Part shown: positions 28,088 through 63,747 of the stretch, piece by piece
Numbering within the stretch: position 1 is the stretch's first letter
Layout: every line of letters starts with the position of its first letter
DNA from: Haloferax sp. Atlit-12N
Lineage (GTDB): Archaea > Halobacteriota > Halobacteria > Halobacteriales > Haloferacaceae
Assembly: GCF_003383095.1 (NCBI RefSeq)
Contig: NZ_PSYW01000001.1
Span: 1,364,001-1,428,000 of the forward strand
Reading direction: 5' to 3'
Length of the DNA stretch: 64,000 bases
Translations under genes and position numbers: made by a program
The notes under the pieces: model-generated
Told to the model about the DNA's origin: nothing
Databases searched by the model: none
The model's input: the letters and a program-made list of their open reading frames with translations, nothing else

Positions 28088-28827
28088 GCCAGCAGGTCCG
28101 CGCGGCCGTCTTCCGCCCCGACGACGACCGCATCGAGCGCGCCGTCGAACTCCTCGACTCGCTCGGCGCGACCCCGGTCCCCGACCCGATGCTCGCAATC
28201 GAGCCGACCGGCGCGACGCCCGAGACCGGCGAGTTCGTCGTCCTGACGAGCAAGACCGGCGTCGAACTCCTCGACGAGGCCGGCTGGAACCCCGGCGACG
28301 CGGTGCTGTGCTGTATCGGCCCCGCGACCGCCGACGCCGCCCGCGAAGTGGGTTGGACAGTCGACCGCGTCCCCGACGAGTACACCTCGGCCGGACTGGT
28401 CGAACACCTCGCGCCCGACGTGGACGGCGCGACGGTCGAAGTCGCCCGGAGCGACCACGGCAGCGCCGTCCTCACGGACGGCCTGCGCGACGCGGGCGCG
28501 GACGTTCACGAGACGGTACTCTACCGACTCGTCCGCCCCGAGGGTGCCGGAAAGTCGGTCGAACTGGCCGCCGCCGGCGACCTCGAAGCCGCCCTCTTTA
28601 CCTCGTCGCTCACGGTCGAACACTTCCTCGACGCCGCCGCGGAGCGCGGTGTCCGCGAGGAGGCCATCGCCGGCCTGAACGACGCCGTCGTCGGCGCAAT
28701 CGGACCGCCGACCCGCGACACCGCGGCGTCCCACGGCATCGACGTGACCGTCGTCCCCGACGAGGCGACGTTCGAAGCGCTCGCGGTCGCCGCGGTCGAG
28801 ACCGCCGCGCCGACGTACCACGAGTGA
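28084..28827 (+). CDS. hemD: uroporphyrinogen-III synthase
   Basis: Cyclises and inverts ring D of hydroxymethylbilane to uroporphyrinogen III. 247 residues, two-lobed fold with weak conservation as usual. FVVLTSKTGVELLDEAGW, CCIGPATADAAREVGW and the C-terminal GAIGPPTRDTAASHGI carry the family signature. Its GTGCCGGAGGAGACG upstream sequence provides a GGAGGAG Shine-Dalgarno. It overlaps the SUMT gene and ends one base before the MFS start. Confidence 0.93.
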   Translation: MSQQVRAAVFRPDDDRIERAVELLDSLGATPVPDPMLAIEPTGATPETGEFVVLTSKTGVELLDEAGWNPGDAVLCCIGPATADAAREVGWTVDRVPDEYTSAGLVEHLAPDVDGATVEVARSDHGSAVLTDGLRDAGADVHETVLYRLVRPEGAGKSVELAAAGDLEAALFTSSLTVEHFLDAAAERGVREEAIAGLNDAVVGAIGPPTRDTAASHGIDVTVVPDEATFEALAVAAVETAAPTYHE

Positions 28828-58247: not shown

Positions 58248-58364
58248 ATGACCCTTATCGAGTGGCTCATCATCGCAGTCGTCGCGCTCGCGATTATCGC
58301 GCTCGTGGTCGCGCTCGTCGACAACGAACTGCTGGTCGAACTCGCCGGGGAGTTGCTCGACTGA
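58248..58364 (+). CDS. 38-residue membrane peptide
   Basis: MTLIEWLIIAVVALAIIALV followed by a short acidic tail ENDELLVELAG-type segment. One strongly hydrophobic helix from residue 3 to 24. The ATG at 58248 has no obvious Shine-Dalgarno. It sits between the antiporter and the arg genes. Function unknown. Confidence 0.5.
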   Translation: MTLIEWLIIAVVALAIIALVVALVDNELLVELAGELLD

Positions 58365-58390
58365 GGAAAGGTTTGCGCCGCCGGAAGCGT

Positions 58391-58396
58391 TTAATA
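58391..58396 (+). promoter_or_regulatory. TATA box for argG leader region
   Basis: TTAATA within GCGTTTAATAGGG, about 29-33 bases before the small ORF at 58424; spacing fits a leaderless transcript starting at that ORF. Confidence 0.45.
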
Positions 58397-58423: not shown

Positions 58424-58501
58424 ATGGCGACTCGCAGCACTTTCGCCACTTTTGCCCCGCTGCGAGCCGCGGCTGTCCGACCCCGACGACGGGCCCTTTA
58501 G
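58424..58501 (+). CDS. possible arginine-rich leader peptide of the arg operon
   Basis: 25 codons: MATRSTFATFAPLRAAAV, then RPRRRAL and TAG. Five of the last twelve codons are Arg, in the run CGA CCC CGA CGA CGG, and four of the six Arg codons in the peptide are CGA. It lies just upstream of argG, an arginine biosynthesis gene, as attenuator peptides do in bacteria. The stop codon lies in the loop of the hairpin at 58492-58505. The TATA spacing supports translation of the peptide. No archaeal arg leader of this kind is known to me. Confidence 0.4.
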   Translation: MATRSTFATFAPLRAAAVRPRRRAL

Positions 58502-58505
58502 GGCC
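58492..58505 (+). promoter_or_regulatory. small hairpin GGCCC-TTTA-GGGCC
   Basis: Perfect 5-base stem and TTTA loop containing the leader ORF stop TAG. A candidate attenuator or terminator hairpin. No U-run follows, so a classical terminator is not supported; ribosome position could instead change its folding. Confidence 0.35.
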
Positions 58506-58606
58506 ACAATCATCATCTCCTTCGGGACACGTCGAAATCTCTAATCTTCCATTTTCGTGCCTATAGGCATCTCTACCACTTAATTTCACAGATTGAATGC
58601 AAAGAA

Positions 58607-58613
58607 TTTATCT
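58607..58613 (+). promoter_or_regulatory. TATA box for argG
   Basis: TTTATCT about 29 bases before the argG ATG at 58639, suggesting a second, leaderless transcript independent of the leader ORF. Confidence 0.5.
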
Positions 58614-58638: not shown

Positions 58639-59856
58639 ATGAAGAAAGTCGCACTCGCGTTCTCGGGCGGACTCGACACAACAGTCTGCGTCCCGATTCT
58701 CGAAGAGGAGTACGGATACGACGAAGTCGTCGGCGTCACCGTCGACGTCGGCCAGCCGGAAGAGGAGTTCGAGGAGGCCTACGAGACGGCCGAGGCCCTC
58801 GGGCTGGAACACTACGTCGTCGACGCGAAACAGGAGTTCGCACAGCTCTGTCTCGACTCGGTGTGCGCCAACGCGGACTATCAGGGCTATCCGCTCGGCA
58901 CCGCGCTCGCGCGTCCGGTCATCGCCAAGGCAATCCTCGAACTCGCAGAGGAGCAGGACTGCGACGGCATCGCCCACGGCTGTACGGGCAAGGGTAACGA
59001 CCAACTCCGCTTCGAGGCGGTCTGGCGCGCCTCCGACCTCGAAGTCATCGCGCCCGTCCGCGAGATGGGCATGACCCGCGAGTGGGAAATCGAGTACGCC
59101 GCCGAGAAGGACCTCCCGGTACAGGGCGGCAACGAGGGCGTCTGGTCCATCGACACGAACCTCTGGAGCCGTTCCATCGAGGGCGGCAACCTCGAAGACC
59201 CCGGCTACGTCCCGCCGGAGGACATCTACGAGTGGACCGACCAGCCGTCCGACGAGACGGAACTCATCGAAATCACGTTCGAAGACGGCTACCCGGTCGC
59301 CGTCGACGACGAGGAACTCGAACCCCTCGAACTCATCTCGCTTCTCAACGAGAAGGCCGGCAAGCACGGCGTCGGCCGCACGGACATGATGGAAGACCGC
59401 ATGCTCGGCCTCAAGGTGCGCGAGAACTACGAGCACCCGGCCGCGACGACGCTCCTGAACGCCCACGAGGCGCTCGAAGGGCTCGTCCTCACGAAAGAAG
59501 AGCGTGACTTCAAGGCCACCGTGGACAACGAGTGGTCCCAGAAGGCCTACGAGGGCCTCATCGACGCCCCGCTCGTGGGCGCGCTGAACGCCTTCCTCGA
59601 AAAGACCCAAGAGCGCGTCACGGGCACCGTGACCATCAAGTTCGAGGGCGGACAGGCCCGCCCGGTCGGCCGCGAGTCCGAGTACGCCGCCTACTCCGAG
59701 TCCGCCGCCTCCTTCAACACGGAGACGGTCGACGGCATCGAGCAGGCCGACGCGACGGGCGTCGCCAAGTATCACGGCTTCCAGGCGCGTCTCGCCAACC
59801 AGAGCGCGAAGAAGCAGAAGCCCGAACTCGCCGCAGACGGCGGTAGCGACGAGTAA
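58639..59856 (+). CDS. argG: argininosuccinate synthase
   Basis: Joins citrulline and aspartate with ATP to give argininosuccinate. 405 residues from the ATG at 58639 (MKKVALAFSGGLDTTVCVPI); the upstream in-frame ATG adds 14 residues of no family value. The PP-loop SGGLDTTV (9-16) and ACTGKGNDQLRFE-type segment HGCTGKGNDQLRFEAVW are present. Followed one base later by argH. Confidence 0.97.
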   Translation: MKKVALAFSGGLDTTVCVPILEEEYGYDEVVGVTVDVGQPEEEFEEAYETAEALGLEHYVVDAKQEFAQLCLDSVCANADYQGYPLGTALARPVIAKAILELAEEQDCDGIAHGCTGKGNDQLRFEAVWRASDLEVIAPVREMGMTREWEIEYAAEKDLPVQGGNEGVWSIDTNLWSRSIEGGNLEDPGYVPPEDIYEWTDQPSDETELIEITFEDGYPVAVDDEELEPLELISLLNEKAGKHGVGRTDMMEDRMLGLKVRENYEHPAATTLLNAHEALEGLVLTKEERDFKATVDNEWSQKAYEGLIDAPLVGALNAFLEKTQERVTGTVTIKFEGGQARPVGRESEYAAYSESAASFNTETVDGIEQADATGVAKYHGFQARLANQSAKKQKPELAADGGSDE

Positions 59857-59857
59857 G

Positions 59858-61324
59858 ATGGCAGGCGAGGACGGCGACTCCGAGGGCGTCATCCGCCGGG
59901 ACCGCTTCAGCGGCGGCCCCGCCCGCGGGTTCATGTCGAGCCTCGCGGCCGACGAACGCATCTTCGAGGCCGACCTCGCCGTCGACCGGGCGCACGTCGT
60001 GATGCTCGCGTCGCAGGACATCATCGAGTCCGAGGTCGCGAGCGAGATTCTCGCCGCGCTGGACGAAGTCGAGGCCGCGGGCCACGACTCGCTTTCGGGC
60101 GGCGAAGACGTCCACGAGGCCATCGAGGCCGCCGTCATCGACATCGTCGGCCCCGACGGCGGGAAGATGCACACCGCCCGCTCGCGCAACGACGAGGTGG
60201 CGACTTGCATCCGCTACCGCCTACGCGAGGACGTGCTTTCGGCCCTCGACGCGGCGCTCGCCCTGCGCGAGTCGCTGGTCGAGACGGCCGCCGAACACAC
60301 CGAGACGGTGATGCCCGGCTACACGCACCTCCAGCCCGCGCAACCGACGACGGTCGCGCACTTCCTGTGCTCGTACGAACGGGCGGTCGCCCGCGACTGC
60401 GCCCGCCTCATGTGCGCGTACGAGCGCATCAACCAGTCGCCGCTCGGGTCGGCGGCGTTCGCGGGCACGCCCTTCGACGTGAACCGCGAACTCGTGTCCG
60501 ACCTGCTCGGCTTCGACCGCGTGATGGAGAACTCGATGGACGCCTCCGCGACCCGCGACTTCCTCGCGGAGACGCTGTCGGCGCTCACGACCCACGCGGT
60601 CACGCTCTCCGGCCTCGCCGAGGACCTCGTGATATTCTCGAACAAGGGGCTCGTCGAGCTGTCGGACGACTACTCGTCGACCTCCTCTATCATGCCGCAG
60701 AAGAAGAACCCCGACACGATGGAACTCGTCCGCGCCGTCGCGGGCGACGCCGTCGGGGAACTCACCGGCCTCCTGACGACGCTGAAGGGACTGCCGCGCG
60801 CGTACAACCGCGACCTCCAGCGCGCCCACAAACACGCGTTCCGCACCGTCGACGACGTTGCCGAGGCGGCCGCGGTGGCCGCCGGCGCAGTCGGGTCGGC
60901 GACGTGGCCCGAGGAGGAACTCGCCGCGGCCGCGGGCGACGGTTTCTCGACCGCGACCGGCGTGGCTGACCTGCTGGCGATGGCCGGCCTCCCGTTCCGC
61001 ACGGCCCACGAGGTCGTCGCGGAGGCGGCCGCCCGCTCCGAGGGAACGCCCGACGTGGCAACACTTGACGCCGTCGCTACGGACGTATTAGGTGAGTCAC
61101 TCTTTACACACGTGACAGCCGAGGCCGTCGAAGCCGCGCTCGACCCGACCGAGAGCGTGGCGAGTCGCGATTCGGTCGGCGGGCCCGCGCCCGCCGCCGT
61201 GGAGGCGACGCTCTCGACGGCCCGCGACGAGCTCTCGGACGACACCGCCGCCGTCGCCGACGCGCGCGACTCGCTCGCGGCGGCCGCCGAGGGTCTCGAC
61301 GAGGAGGTTTCGAGCTATGTCTGA
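59858..61324 (+). CDS. argH: argininosuccinate lyase
   Basis: Cleaves argininosuccinate to arginine and fumarate. 488 residues. The catalytic signature SSIMPQKKNPDTMEL is intact, with THLQPAQPTTVAHF and the SRNDEVAT segment before it. The C-terminus is slightly extended and acidic. The start ATG follows argG by one base (TAAG ATGG), so the two form one operon. Confidence 0.97.
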   Translation: MAGEDGDSEGVIRRDRFSGGPARGFMSSLAADERIFEADLAVDRAHVVMLASQDIIESEVASEILAALDEVEAAGHDSLSGGEDVHEAIEAAVIDIVGPDGGKMHTARSRNDEVATCIRYRLREDVLSALDAALALRESLVETAAEHTETVMPGYTHLQPAQPTTVAHFLCSYERAVARDCARLMCAYERINQSPLGSAAFAGTPFDVNRELVSDLLGFDRVMENSMDASATRDFLAETLSALTTHAVTLSGLAEDLVIFSNKGLVELSDDYSSTSSIMPQKKNPDTMELVRAVAGDAVGELTGLLTTLKGLPRAYNRDLQRAHKHAFRTVDDVAEAAAVAAGAVGSATWPEEELAAAAGDGFSTATGVADLLAMAGLPFRTAHEVVAEAAARSEGTPDVATLDAVATDVLGESLFTHVTAEAVEAALDPTESVASRDSVGGPAPAAVEATLSTARDELSDDTAAVADARDSLAAAAEGLDEEVSSYV

Positions 61325-61650: not shown

Positions 61651-61830
61651 ATGAGCGACACCATCACCGCGGAAGACCCGCTGAGCGGAGAGGAAATCGA
61701 GCTGCCGGCCGACGTCGAAGTCGGCGAAATCATCGACAGCCCCGCCACGGGCGCAGAGCTGGAAGTCGTCTCCCTCGACCCCGTGACACTCGAAGAAGCG
61801 CCCGAACTCGAAGAGGACTGGGGAGAGTAA
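61651..61830 (+). CDS. lysW: amino-group carrier protein LysW
   Basis: 59 residues. The C-terminus EELEDWGE-type motif (ELEEDWGE) carries the terminal glutamate that binds the glutamate or aminoadipate amino group. The body AEDPLSGEEIELPADVEVGE then IIDSPATGAELEVVSLDP aligns with LysW, but the four zinc-binding cysteines of Thermus-type LysW (CPECG...CPVCG) are all replaced (LSGE, SPATG). It still should carry intermediates for ArgX, ArgB and ArgC. First gene of the downstream arg operon, one base before argX. Confidence 0.9.
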   Translation: MSDTITAEDPLSGEEIELPADVEVGEIIDSPATGAELEVVSLDPVTLEEAPELEEDWGE

Positions 61831-61831
61831 A

Positions 61832-62707
61832 TTGCACGTTGGACTGCTCTATTCCCGGATTCGCCGCGACGAGAAGCTCCTGCTCAACGAGCTTCGCGAC
61901 CGCGGCCACGAGGTGACGAAGATAGACGTTCGGAAAGAGCAGTTCGACCTCACGGAGCCGCCGGAATCGTTCGACGGACTCGACGTGGTGGTCGACCGCT
62001 GTCTGGCGACGAGCAGGAGCATCTACATCACGCGCTTCCTGCAGTCGTACGGAATCCCGGTCGTCAACTCCCACGAGACCGCCGACATCTGCGCCGACAA
62101 GGCGAAAAACAGCCTCGCGCTCGTGGACGCGGGCGTACCCACGCCGAACACGAAGGTGGCCTTCACAGTCGAGTCGGCGATGGAAATCGTCGAGGAGTTC
62201 GGCTACCCCTGCGTCCTCAAGCCGGTCGTCGGCTCGTGGGGTCGCCTGATGGCGAAAATCGACTCCGAGGCGGCCGCCGAGGCCATCCTCGAACACAAGT
62301 CGACGCTCGGCAACTACGAGCACAAGGTGTTCTACATCCAGGAGTTCGTCGAGAAGCCGGGCCGCGACATCCGCGTGCTCGCCACCGACGGCGAGCCCGT
62401 GGCCGCGATGGTCCGCTCGTCGGACCACTGGCTCACGAACGCCGCGAAGGGCGCGAGCGTCGACGAGTTCGAACTCGACGACCGCGCGAAGGAACTCGTG
62501 AAGCAGGCGTCCGACGCGGTCGGCGGCGGCCTGCTCGGCGTCGATCTCATGGAGACGGGAGATGACTACACCGTCCACGAGGTCAACCACACCGTCGAGT
62601 TCAAGGCGCTCAACGACGCCGTCGAGACGGACGTTCCCGCGACAGTCGTCGACTGGCTCGAAGCCAAGGTCGACGGCGAGCAGTCGCTGGCGGAGGTCTC
62701 GGCGTGA
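61832..62707 (+). CDS. argX: glutamate--LysW ligase (ATP-grasp)
   Basis: Attaches glutamate (or aminoadipate) to the C-terminal Glu of LysW. 291 residues from a TTG at 61832, one base after lysW. RimK-like ATP-grasp: NSHETADICADKAKNSLALV, CVLKPVVGSWGRLMAKIDSE and LGVDLMETGD with the metal-binding acids. Distinction between ArgX and LysX cannot be made safely by eye; context with argGH favours ArgX. Overlaps argC by four bases. Confidence 0.93.
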   Translation: MHVGLLYSRIRRDEKLLLNELRDRGHEVTKIDVRKEQFDLTEPPESFDGLDVVVDRCLATSRSIYITRFLQSYGIPVVNSHETADICADKAKNSLALVDAGVPTPNTKVAFTVESAMEIVEEFGYPCVLKPVVGSWGRLMAKIDSEAAAEAILEHKSTLGNYEHKVFYIQEFVEKPGRDIRVLATDGEPVAAMVRSSDHWLTNAAKGASVDEFELDDRAKELVKQASDAVGGGLLGVDLMETGDDYTVHEVNHTVEFKALNDAVETDVPATVVDWLEAKVDGEQSLAEVSA

Positions 62708-63747
62708 GCGACCAACTCACTGCGGGCGTCGTCGGCGGCTCCGGCTTCACCGGCGGCGAACTGCTCCGCCTGCTCGACGGCCACCCGAACTTCGACGTCG
62801 AACAGGCGACGAGCCGCTCCTACGAGCGCAAGACCGTCGGCCATGTCCACCCGAACCTTCGTCACCTCGACCTCCGTTTCACCTCGCCGGAGGACCTCGA
62901 ATCAGTCGACGTGCTGTTCACGGCGACGCCCCACGGCGTCTCGATGGAGCACATCGACGCCTTTCAGGACGCGGCGGACACCGTCGTCGACCTCTCTGCG
63001 GACTTCCGTCTCTCCGAGGCGGCGCAGTACGACGAGTGGTACGACGGCCACGTCTGCCCGGAATACCTCGAACAGTCGGAGTACGCGCTCCCCGAACTGA
63101 ACCGCGAGAACCTCCCCGGCGCGGACCTCATCGCCGCGGGCGGCTGTAACGCGACCGCGACGATTCTCGGCCTCAAGCCGCTTTTCGACGCCGGCATCCT
63201 CTCCGGCGACGAGCAGGTCGTCGTGGACGTGAAAGTCGGCTCGTCGGAGGGCGGCGCGGGCGCGAGCAAGGCGTCGTCGCACGCCGAGCGCTCGGGCATC
63301 GTCCGCCCCTACGCGCCGACCGGCCACCGCCACGAGGCCGAAATCGAGGAGTACCTCGGCCTCTCGGTCTCGTTTACCGTCCACGCGGTCGACATGGTTC
63401 GCGGCGCGGCGGCGACCTGTCACGTCTTCCCCGACGGCCCCGTCTCGAAGGGCGACATGTGGAAAGCGTTCCGCGGGTCCTACGGCGACGAACCGTTCAT
63501 GCGAACCGTCGCCGGCGGCGGCGGCGTCTACCGCTACCCGGAACCGAAGTCGGTCGCCGGGACGAACTTCGGCGAGGTCGGCTTCGAAATCGACCCCGGA
63601 AACCGACGACTCGTCGTCTTCTCGGCCATCGACAACATGATGAAAGGCTCCGCGGGGCAGGCGGTCCACGCCGCCAACATCGCGCTCGGGCTGGATGAGA
63701 CCGCCGGACTCGACTTCACCGGCTTCCACCCCATCGGCTCGCCCTGA
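62704..63747 (+). CDS. argC: N-acetyl-/LysW-gamma-glutamyl-phosphate reductase
   Basis: Reduces the LysW-bound glutamyl phosphate to the semialdehyde with NADPH. 347 residues from a GTG at 62704. Rossmann motif VVGGSGFTGGELLRLL and the catalytic cysteine in GGCNATATIL (Cys 148) are present. The conserved SGAGA-type segment reads SSEGGAGASKAS. Followed by argB 54 bases later. Confidence 0.95.
   Translation: MSDQLTAGVVGGSGFTGGELLRLLDGHPNFDVEQATSRSYERKTVGHVHPNLRHLDLRFTSPEDLESVDVLFTATPHGVSMEHIDAFQDAADTVVDLSADFRLSEAAQYDEWYDGHVCPEYLEQSEYALPELNRENLPGADLIAAGGCNATATILGLKPLFDAGILSGDEQVVVDVKVGSSEGGAGASKASSHAERSGIVRPYAPTGHRHEAEIEEYLGLSVSFTVHAVDMVRGAAATCHVFPDGPVSKGDMWKAFRGSYGDEPFMRTVAGGGGVYRYPEPKSVAGTNFGEVGFEIDPGNRRLVVFSAIDNMMKGSAGQAVHAANIALGLDETAGLDFTGFHPIGSP

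Follow-up and report, generated by a model that had tools for sequence, protein, structure and literature searches.

In bacteria, amino-acid operons are controlled by leader peptides, and the textbook mechanism is that of the attenuators of trp, his, leu, ilvGMEDA and ilvBN, in which a short ORF with a run of cognate codons, together with hairpins, lies 5' of the operon. In pyrBI of E. coli, a ribosome close behind RNA polymerase directly blocks the downstream hairpin, a terminator with a U-run, and no alternative antiterminator takes part; here UTP is sensed, via polymerase pausing. In the Rho-dependent tnaC system, translation of the leader decides whether the factor gains access to exposed G-poor RNA past the stop codon, and free tryptophan is sensed by peptide arrest, not by tRNA charging. 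In fungi, a uORF of roughly 25 codons before an arginine gene (arg-2/CPA1) encodes the arginine attenuator peptide, a conserved peptide that stalls at the stop codon in response to arginine. For archaea, a 2021 study describes the recruitment of polymerase and initiation factors as the only known target of transcription control (PMC8448881), and PMC8116511 and PMC11616081 leave unsettled whether transcription and translation are functionally coupled. The literature that we searched, which missed most subscription papers, yielded no leader-peptide attenuator in archaea; novelty is therefore unproven.

The locus analyzed here lies in a stretch of 64,000 nucleotides from Haloferax sp. Atlit-12N (the window, to which all coordinates refer; all features of the locus are on the plus strand). 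A leader ORF of 25 codons (58424..58501), encoding MATRSTFATFAPLRAAAVRPRRRAL and probably leaderless or nearly so, is preceded by promoter P1 (58383..58396), in which a purine-rich, BRE-like GGAAGCG stands before a TATA box, TTTAATA, at 58390-58396, -34 nt from the leader ATG. The arginine codons of the ORF are, in order, CGC, CGA, CGA, CGA, CGA and CGG. Putative control codons, CGA CCC CGA CGA CGG (58478..58492), abut the 5' side of a short hairpin, GGCCC-TTTA-GGGCC (hairpin 2, 58492..58505), that holds the leader stop TAG (58499-58501); T and A of the stop are in the loop and G opens the 3' arm. Inside the ORF, RNAfold predicts a further hairpin (hairpin 1, 58427..58470), in which GCG.CTCGCAGC pairs with GCTGCGAG.CGC. 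Past hairpin 2 comes a G-free tail, ACAATCATCATCTCCTTC (58506..58523); the next G is at 58524, 25 nt from the T of the stop. The first-pass annotation of this DNA had described a 25-codon ORF with a TATA box at leaderless spacing, CGA in four of six arginine codons, a stop within a 5-bp hairpin and a position ahead of argG, and all of this is present as it was described.

The gene that follows, argG (58639..59856, with its ATG at 58639; NCBIfam NF010392, E=2.8e-201, and TIGR00032), encodes argininosuccinate synthase and is the first gene of the arginine operon. It is 100% identical to argG of H. marisrubri, to which this genome is close. Next come argH (59858-61324; TIGR00838), lysW/argW (61651-61830; TIGR01206), lysX/argX (61832-62707; TIGR02144) and argC (62704-63747; TIGR01850), all NCBIfam assignments; thus the leader heads arginine genes. 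A second TATA element nearer argG, proposed earlier as the source of another transcript, is real as well: promoter P2, with the core TTTAT at 58607..58611, lies 32 nt 5' of the argG ATG and is predicted to give a leader-free argG transcript. P2 is present in most loci and absent in about 20 (Halobacterium, Halorussus, Halomarina, Halocatena, Haloglomus and others), where the leader-bearing transcript therefore appears to be the sole argG message.

Absence of the ORF or of its arginine run from relatives had been named in advance as grounds for abandoning the proposal. We compared the regions upstream of argG in 110 loci from about 30 genera, plus 28 further genomes; the counts given here come from nonredundant sets of 65-74 leaders, whose members nonetheless share ancestry. 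Nearly all haloarchaeal genera sampled have an ORF, in most cases 21-57 codons long, with an arginine-rich end and a stop inside a GC hairpin; it was not seen in five genomes (G035, G051, G042, G057 and G044) of three deep families. A TATA-like element starts -36 to -28 of the in-frame ATG in 65 of 70 leaders, as against 121 of 4245 background ATGs (2.9%). When promoter and first following ATG were picked blind to frame, 63 of 65 loci had this ATG in frame, with no stop before that of the hairpin (P=8e-28, a value that is indicative only, since the leaders are related by descent); outside these 65 loci, five lack a stop in the loop, and in five the rule finds no clear promoter or ATG. Comparison thus indicates that ORF, arginine run, hairpin and promoter spacing are not chance, as all recur across haloarchaea. 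Minority variants occur: the stop lies just past the hairpin in part of Haloferax, Halomarina and Natronocalculus, and some leaders start with GTG.

The control codons are strongly biased. In 74 distinct leaders, CGA accounts for 72% of the 350 arginine codons found among the final 13 codons, versus 1.9% of the 1149 arginine codons of argG; in the window's genes near the locus it accounts for 7%. In 66 of 70 leaders, the last CGA begins 4-5 nt ahead of the stem of hairpin 2, so that a ribosome waiting there would, judging from typical footprints, cover the 5' arm. In the body of the leader, 149 synonymous changes are observed where 112 are expected, a modest excess from pairs that are not independent. 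Outside the cognate run, the peptides show only weak conservation, which is usual in known attenuator leaders.

The same layout is found before two other genes. Leaders of ilvB (acetolactate synthase) occur in most haloarchaea tested, with hairpin, stop position and tail as in the arginine leader; their peptides end in ..RIVGAL, ..IIVGV or ..LIIVGA, with the control codons ATT ATT GTA (Ile-Ile-Val), and one lies in the window's own genome (G000:C5:229319). They were found with a relaxed TATA filter, a stricter one having hidden many. Among their codons, ATT makes up 30 of 39 for isoleucine and GTA 24 of 35 for valine, compared with 10.8% and 1.4% in the ilvB genes themselves; in the long-stemmed ilv leaders GTA falls within the stem, so pairing also constrains the choice of codon. 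In some genomes, leaders of valS (valyl-tRNA synthetase) end in ..FVGA, ..VRVGA or ..VVVGA, and GTA makes up 22 of their 32 valine codons. No such leader was found upstream of trpC or hisG. Scans of up to 89 genomes with patterns that combine GGGG, GGGC or GGCC stems, a stop in the loop and 13 non-G positions returned argG, ilvB and valS leaders, the remaining matches being apparently due to chance; with the GGGG/TAG pattern there were about 58 rows, some of them overlapping, and with the pattern reversed as a control there were 16 matches. In the window's genome, four stem/stop patterns gave two matches in total, namely the ilvB leader and the arginine leader. The scans were confined to few stem/stop types, and therefore further leaders of the class may exist. 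A covariance model of the arginine hairpin, searched in 59 genomes, gave strong matches at argG; the second-tier matches that were fetched sit inside genes and were set aside.

That the amino acid of the leader matches the downstream gene in three families is the strongest argument for amino-acid sensing, and with the conservation and the codon bias it supports the amino-acid leader peptide that had been proposed for argG. The same data bear on what would be sensed, tRNA charging or the amino acid itself. A short arginine-rich uORF before an arginine gene, its run ending near the stop, brings to mind the fungal peptide, and the nascent chain might sense free arginine within the ribosome. Yet the haloarchaeal leaders conserve codon choice, not peptide sequence: synonymous codons are under selection (CGA, ATT, GTA), the peptides are hardly conserved past the cognate run, and the layout recurs with Ile/Val and with Val. 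These observations argue for decoding by tRNA, not recognition of the peptide, and we regard peptide arrest as very improbable. The choice of CGA, ATT and GTA hints at the tRNAs that would act as sensors.

Most leaders are predicted to fold as two hairpins, a strong one in the ORF and a short one with the stop, with the control codons between them; with RNAfold the strong 5' hairpin also appears in most of the other arg and ilv leaders that were folded. In 66 of 70 loci the stem of hairpin 2 has 5 bp without mismatch despite varied sequence, its types including GGGCC/GGCCC, GGCCC/GGGCC, CGGGC/GCCCG, GGGTC/GACCC and others. When arms are re-paired between loci, 13.4 perfect stems are expected and the maximum in 2000 shuffles is 24: the stem covaries. 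An inverted repeat that in many loci sits between two promoters could also be a DNA operator or, with its flanks, a protein-binding site in RNA, the ORF being incidental. However, the stem sequence differs between genera while pairing is kept, the feature is strand-asymmetric, being G-free on one strand only, and the hairpin goes together with ATG, frame, stop and control codons; we find such a site scarcely credible.

Over the 15 nt past hairpin 2, G amounts to about 1% in 72 leaders. From the first base of the stop to the first G the distance is 24-28 nt in 58 of 67 arginine leaders and 22-29 nt in 46 of 50 ilv leaders, although the stems of the latter are often longer; the span from stop to first G is thus near-fixed, and the length of the tail seems to be set from the stop and not from where the stem ends. 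This suggests that it reflects the geometry of ribosome and polymerase. No terminator-like site of hairpin and U-run was seen in this region of the window, the arg, ilvB and valS leader sets have almost no TTT in the 20 nt that follow the stop, and Rfam gave no family above the gathering score in the window or in the ilvB, valS and argG loci. Folding of the leaders gives two separate hairpins and no consistent alternative pairing of the antiterminator kind.

Taken together, we think it likely that the arginine-operon element is a ribosome-mediated attenuator and one of a haloarchaeal class with further members at ilvB and, in some genomes, at valS. A short leader ORF lies 5' of the operon, with ORF, promoter and frame conserved and translation predicted; it carries a run of rare cognate codons, Arg for argG, Ile-Val for ilvB and Val for valS; and the hairpin is placed where a stalled ribosome would act on it. 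Comparison of sequences shows the ORF, its frame and promoter, the codon choice, the spacing from codons to stem, the stem, the tail and the cognate pairing of leader and gene; from these we infer that the leader is translated, that ribosomes stall on it, and in which direction and at which level control would act. RNA polymerase would start at P1 and the (almost) leaderless ORF would be translated. When charged arginyl-tRNA is scarce, the ribosome would stall on the rare CGA codons with its leading edge over the 5' arm, so that hairpin 2 could not form and the operon would be expressed. When arginine is plentiful, the ribosome would reach the stop inside hairpin 2 and leave; hairpin 2 would then fold, the G-free tail would trail the polymerase as accessible single-stranded RNA, and transcription would end early, most likely by a factor-dependent route (FttA with Spt4/5) and not at an intrinsic U-tract terminator. 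The sensing logic is well supported by the comparison. The off-step, which we infer, is probably factor-dependent termination, and FttA as the terminating factor is a guess.

By function, then, the element is likely a ribosome-mediated attenuator, and its anatomy, as read from the leaders, departs from that of the bacterial ones: it is archaeal, the ORF is leaderless or nearly so, the stop lies inside the second hairpin, there is neither an evident antiterminator pairing nor a U-tract terminator, and a G-free tail has a near-fixed length from the stop. With pyrBI it would share a ribosome near the polymerase that directly prevents a hairpin, with no evident antiterminator; in contrast to pyrBI, sensing would be by charged tRNA at rare cognate codons, and no hairpin with a U-run serves as terminator. 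With tnaC it would share the control of factor access by leader translation. Archaea lack Rho, however, and FttA/aCPSF1 with Spt4/5 would have to act in its place. FttA acts with Spt5, for which competition by the ribosome has been hypothesized, and is reported to prefer U-rich RNA (PMC11616081).

Several observations count against the attenuator reading. The tail is without the U-rich tract that FttA reportedly prefers, a stalled ribosome might also leave downstream RNA exposed, P2 bypasses the leader in most loci, in a few leaders the stop comes shortly after the hairpin or is missing, and the synonymous excess in the leader body is modest. Termination may also play no part. Haloarchaeal mRNAs without Shine-Dalgarno sequences are translated, and the leader could be a uORF at which a stalled ribosome alters argG translation, through unmasking or by letting ribosomes re-initiate, or shields the 5' end of the mRNA; an unstructured, G-free tail could serve post-termination ribosomes, and the absence of an intrinsic terminator fits as well. 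Against this, in 21 loci without P2 the argG start region is unpaired to 0.70 with the leader folded and 0.69 with a stalled ribosome. Sequestration of the start codon, for which no consistent change in accessibility is seen, is thus unlikely, and control of transcription is favored. Moreover, the distance from leader stop to argG varies widely (78-153 nt in the loci without P2) whereas that from stop to first G is near-fixed, and in P2 loci the leader sits 5' of a separate promoter. We therefore hold control of translation or stability, rather than attenuation, to be rather unlikely.

Attenuation in archaea would require a functional coupling of transcription and translation, for which the leaders are ready reporters in Haloferax volcanii, a laboratory species that is genetically tractable. 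The haloarchaeal leaders suggest that archaea, as bacteria do, read a test peptide to judge amino-acid shortage. The wider proposal, that transcription attenuators under the control of translation form a general class in haloarchaea, with ribosome release letting FttA with Spt5 act on the G-free tail, we consider evenly balanced between right and wrong; if true, it would bring amino-acid attenuation to archaea and provide a natural test bed for transcription-translation coupling.

Some loci depart from the common form. In Salinadaptatus (L071) the hairpin stop is lost and the ORF runs more than 20 codons on, with promoter and arginine run kept. In the Halonotius/Halohasta group (L063, L074, L078, L087 and L108) the arginine run is kept (RQRRLRRLPRAG), but the hairpin seems to be longer and is followed by the stop; the element has a derived form here. 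The arginine leader regions of L024, L060 and L076 are stretched by repeated palindromic units, which in L060 and L076 appear to preserve the reading frame (RRQ-like repeats). The sole tRNA gene of the window is a tRNA-Ile (gat) of 87 nt at 28684-28770 on the minus strand. Just 5' of the leader promoter, on the plus strand, is an ORF of 38 amino acids, MTLIEWLIIAVVALAIIALVVALVDNELLVELAGELLD (58248-58364), with one probable transmembrane helix; it has no family match and a close counterpart in another Haloferax (L010). Finally, a conserved AT-rich block, TTAATTTCACAGATTGAATGCAAAGAATTTA (about 58580-58611, plus strand), which may be an operator, lies 5' of P2 and has counterparts in other P2-bearing loci.
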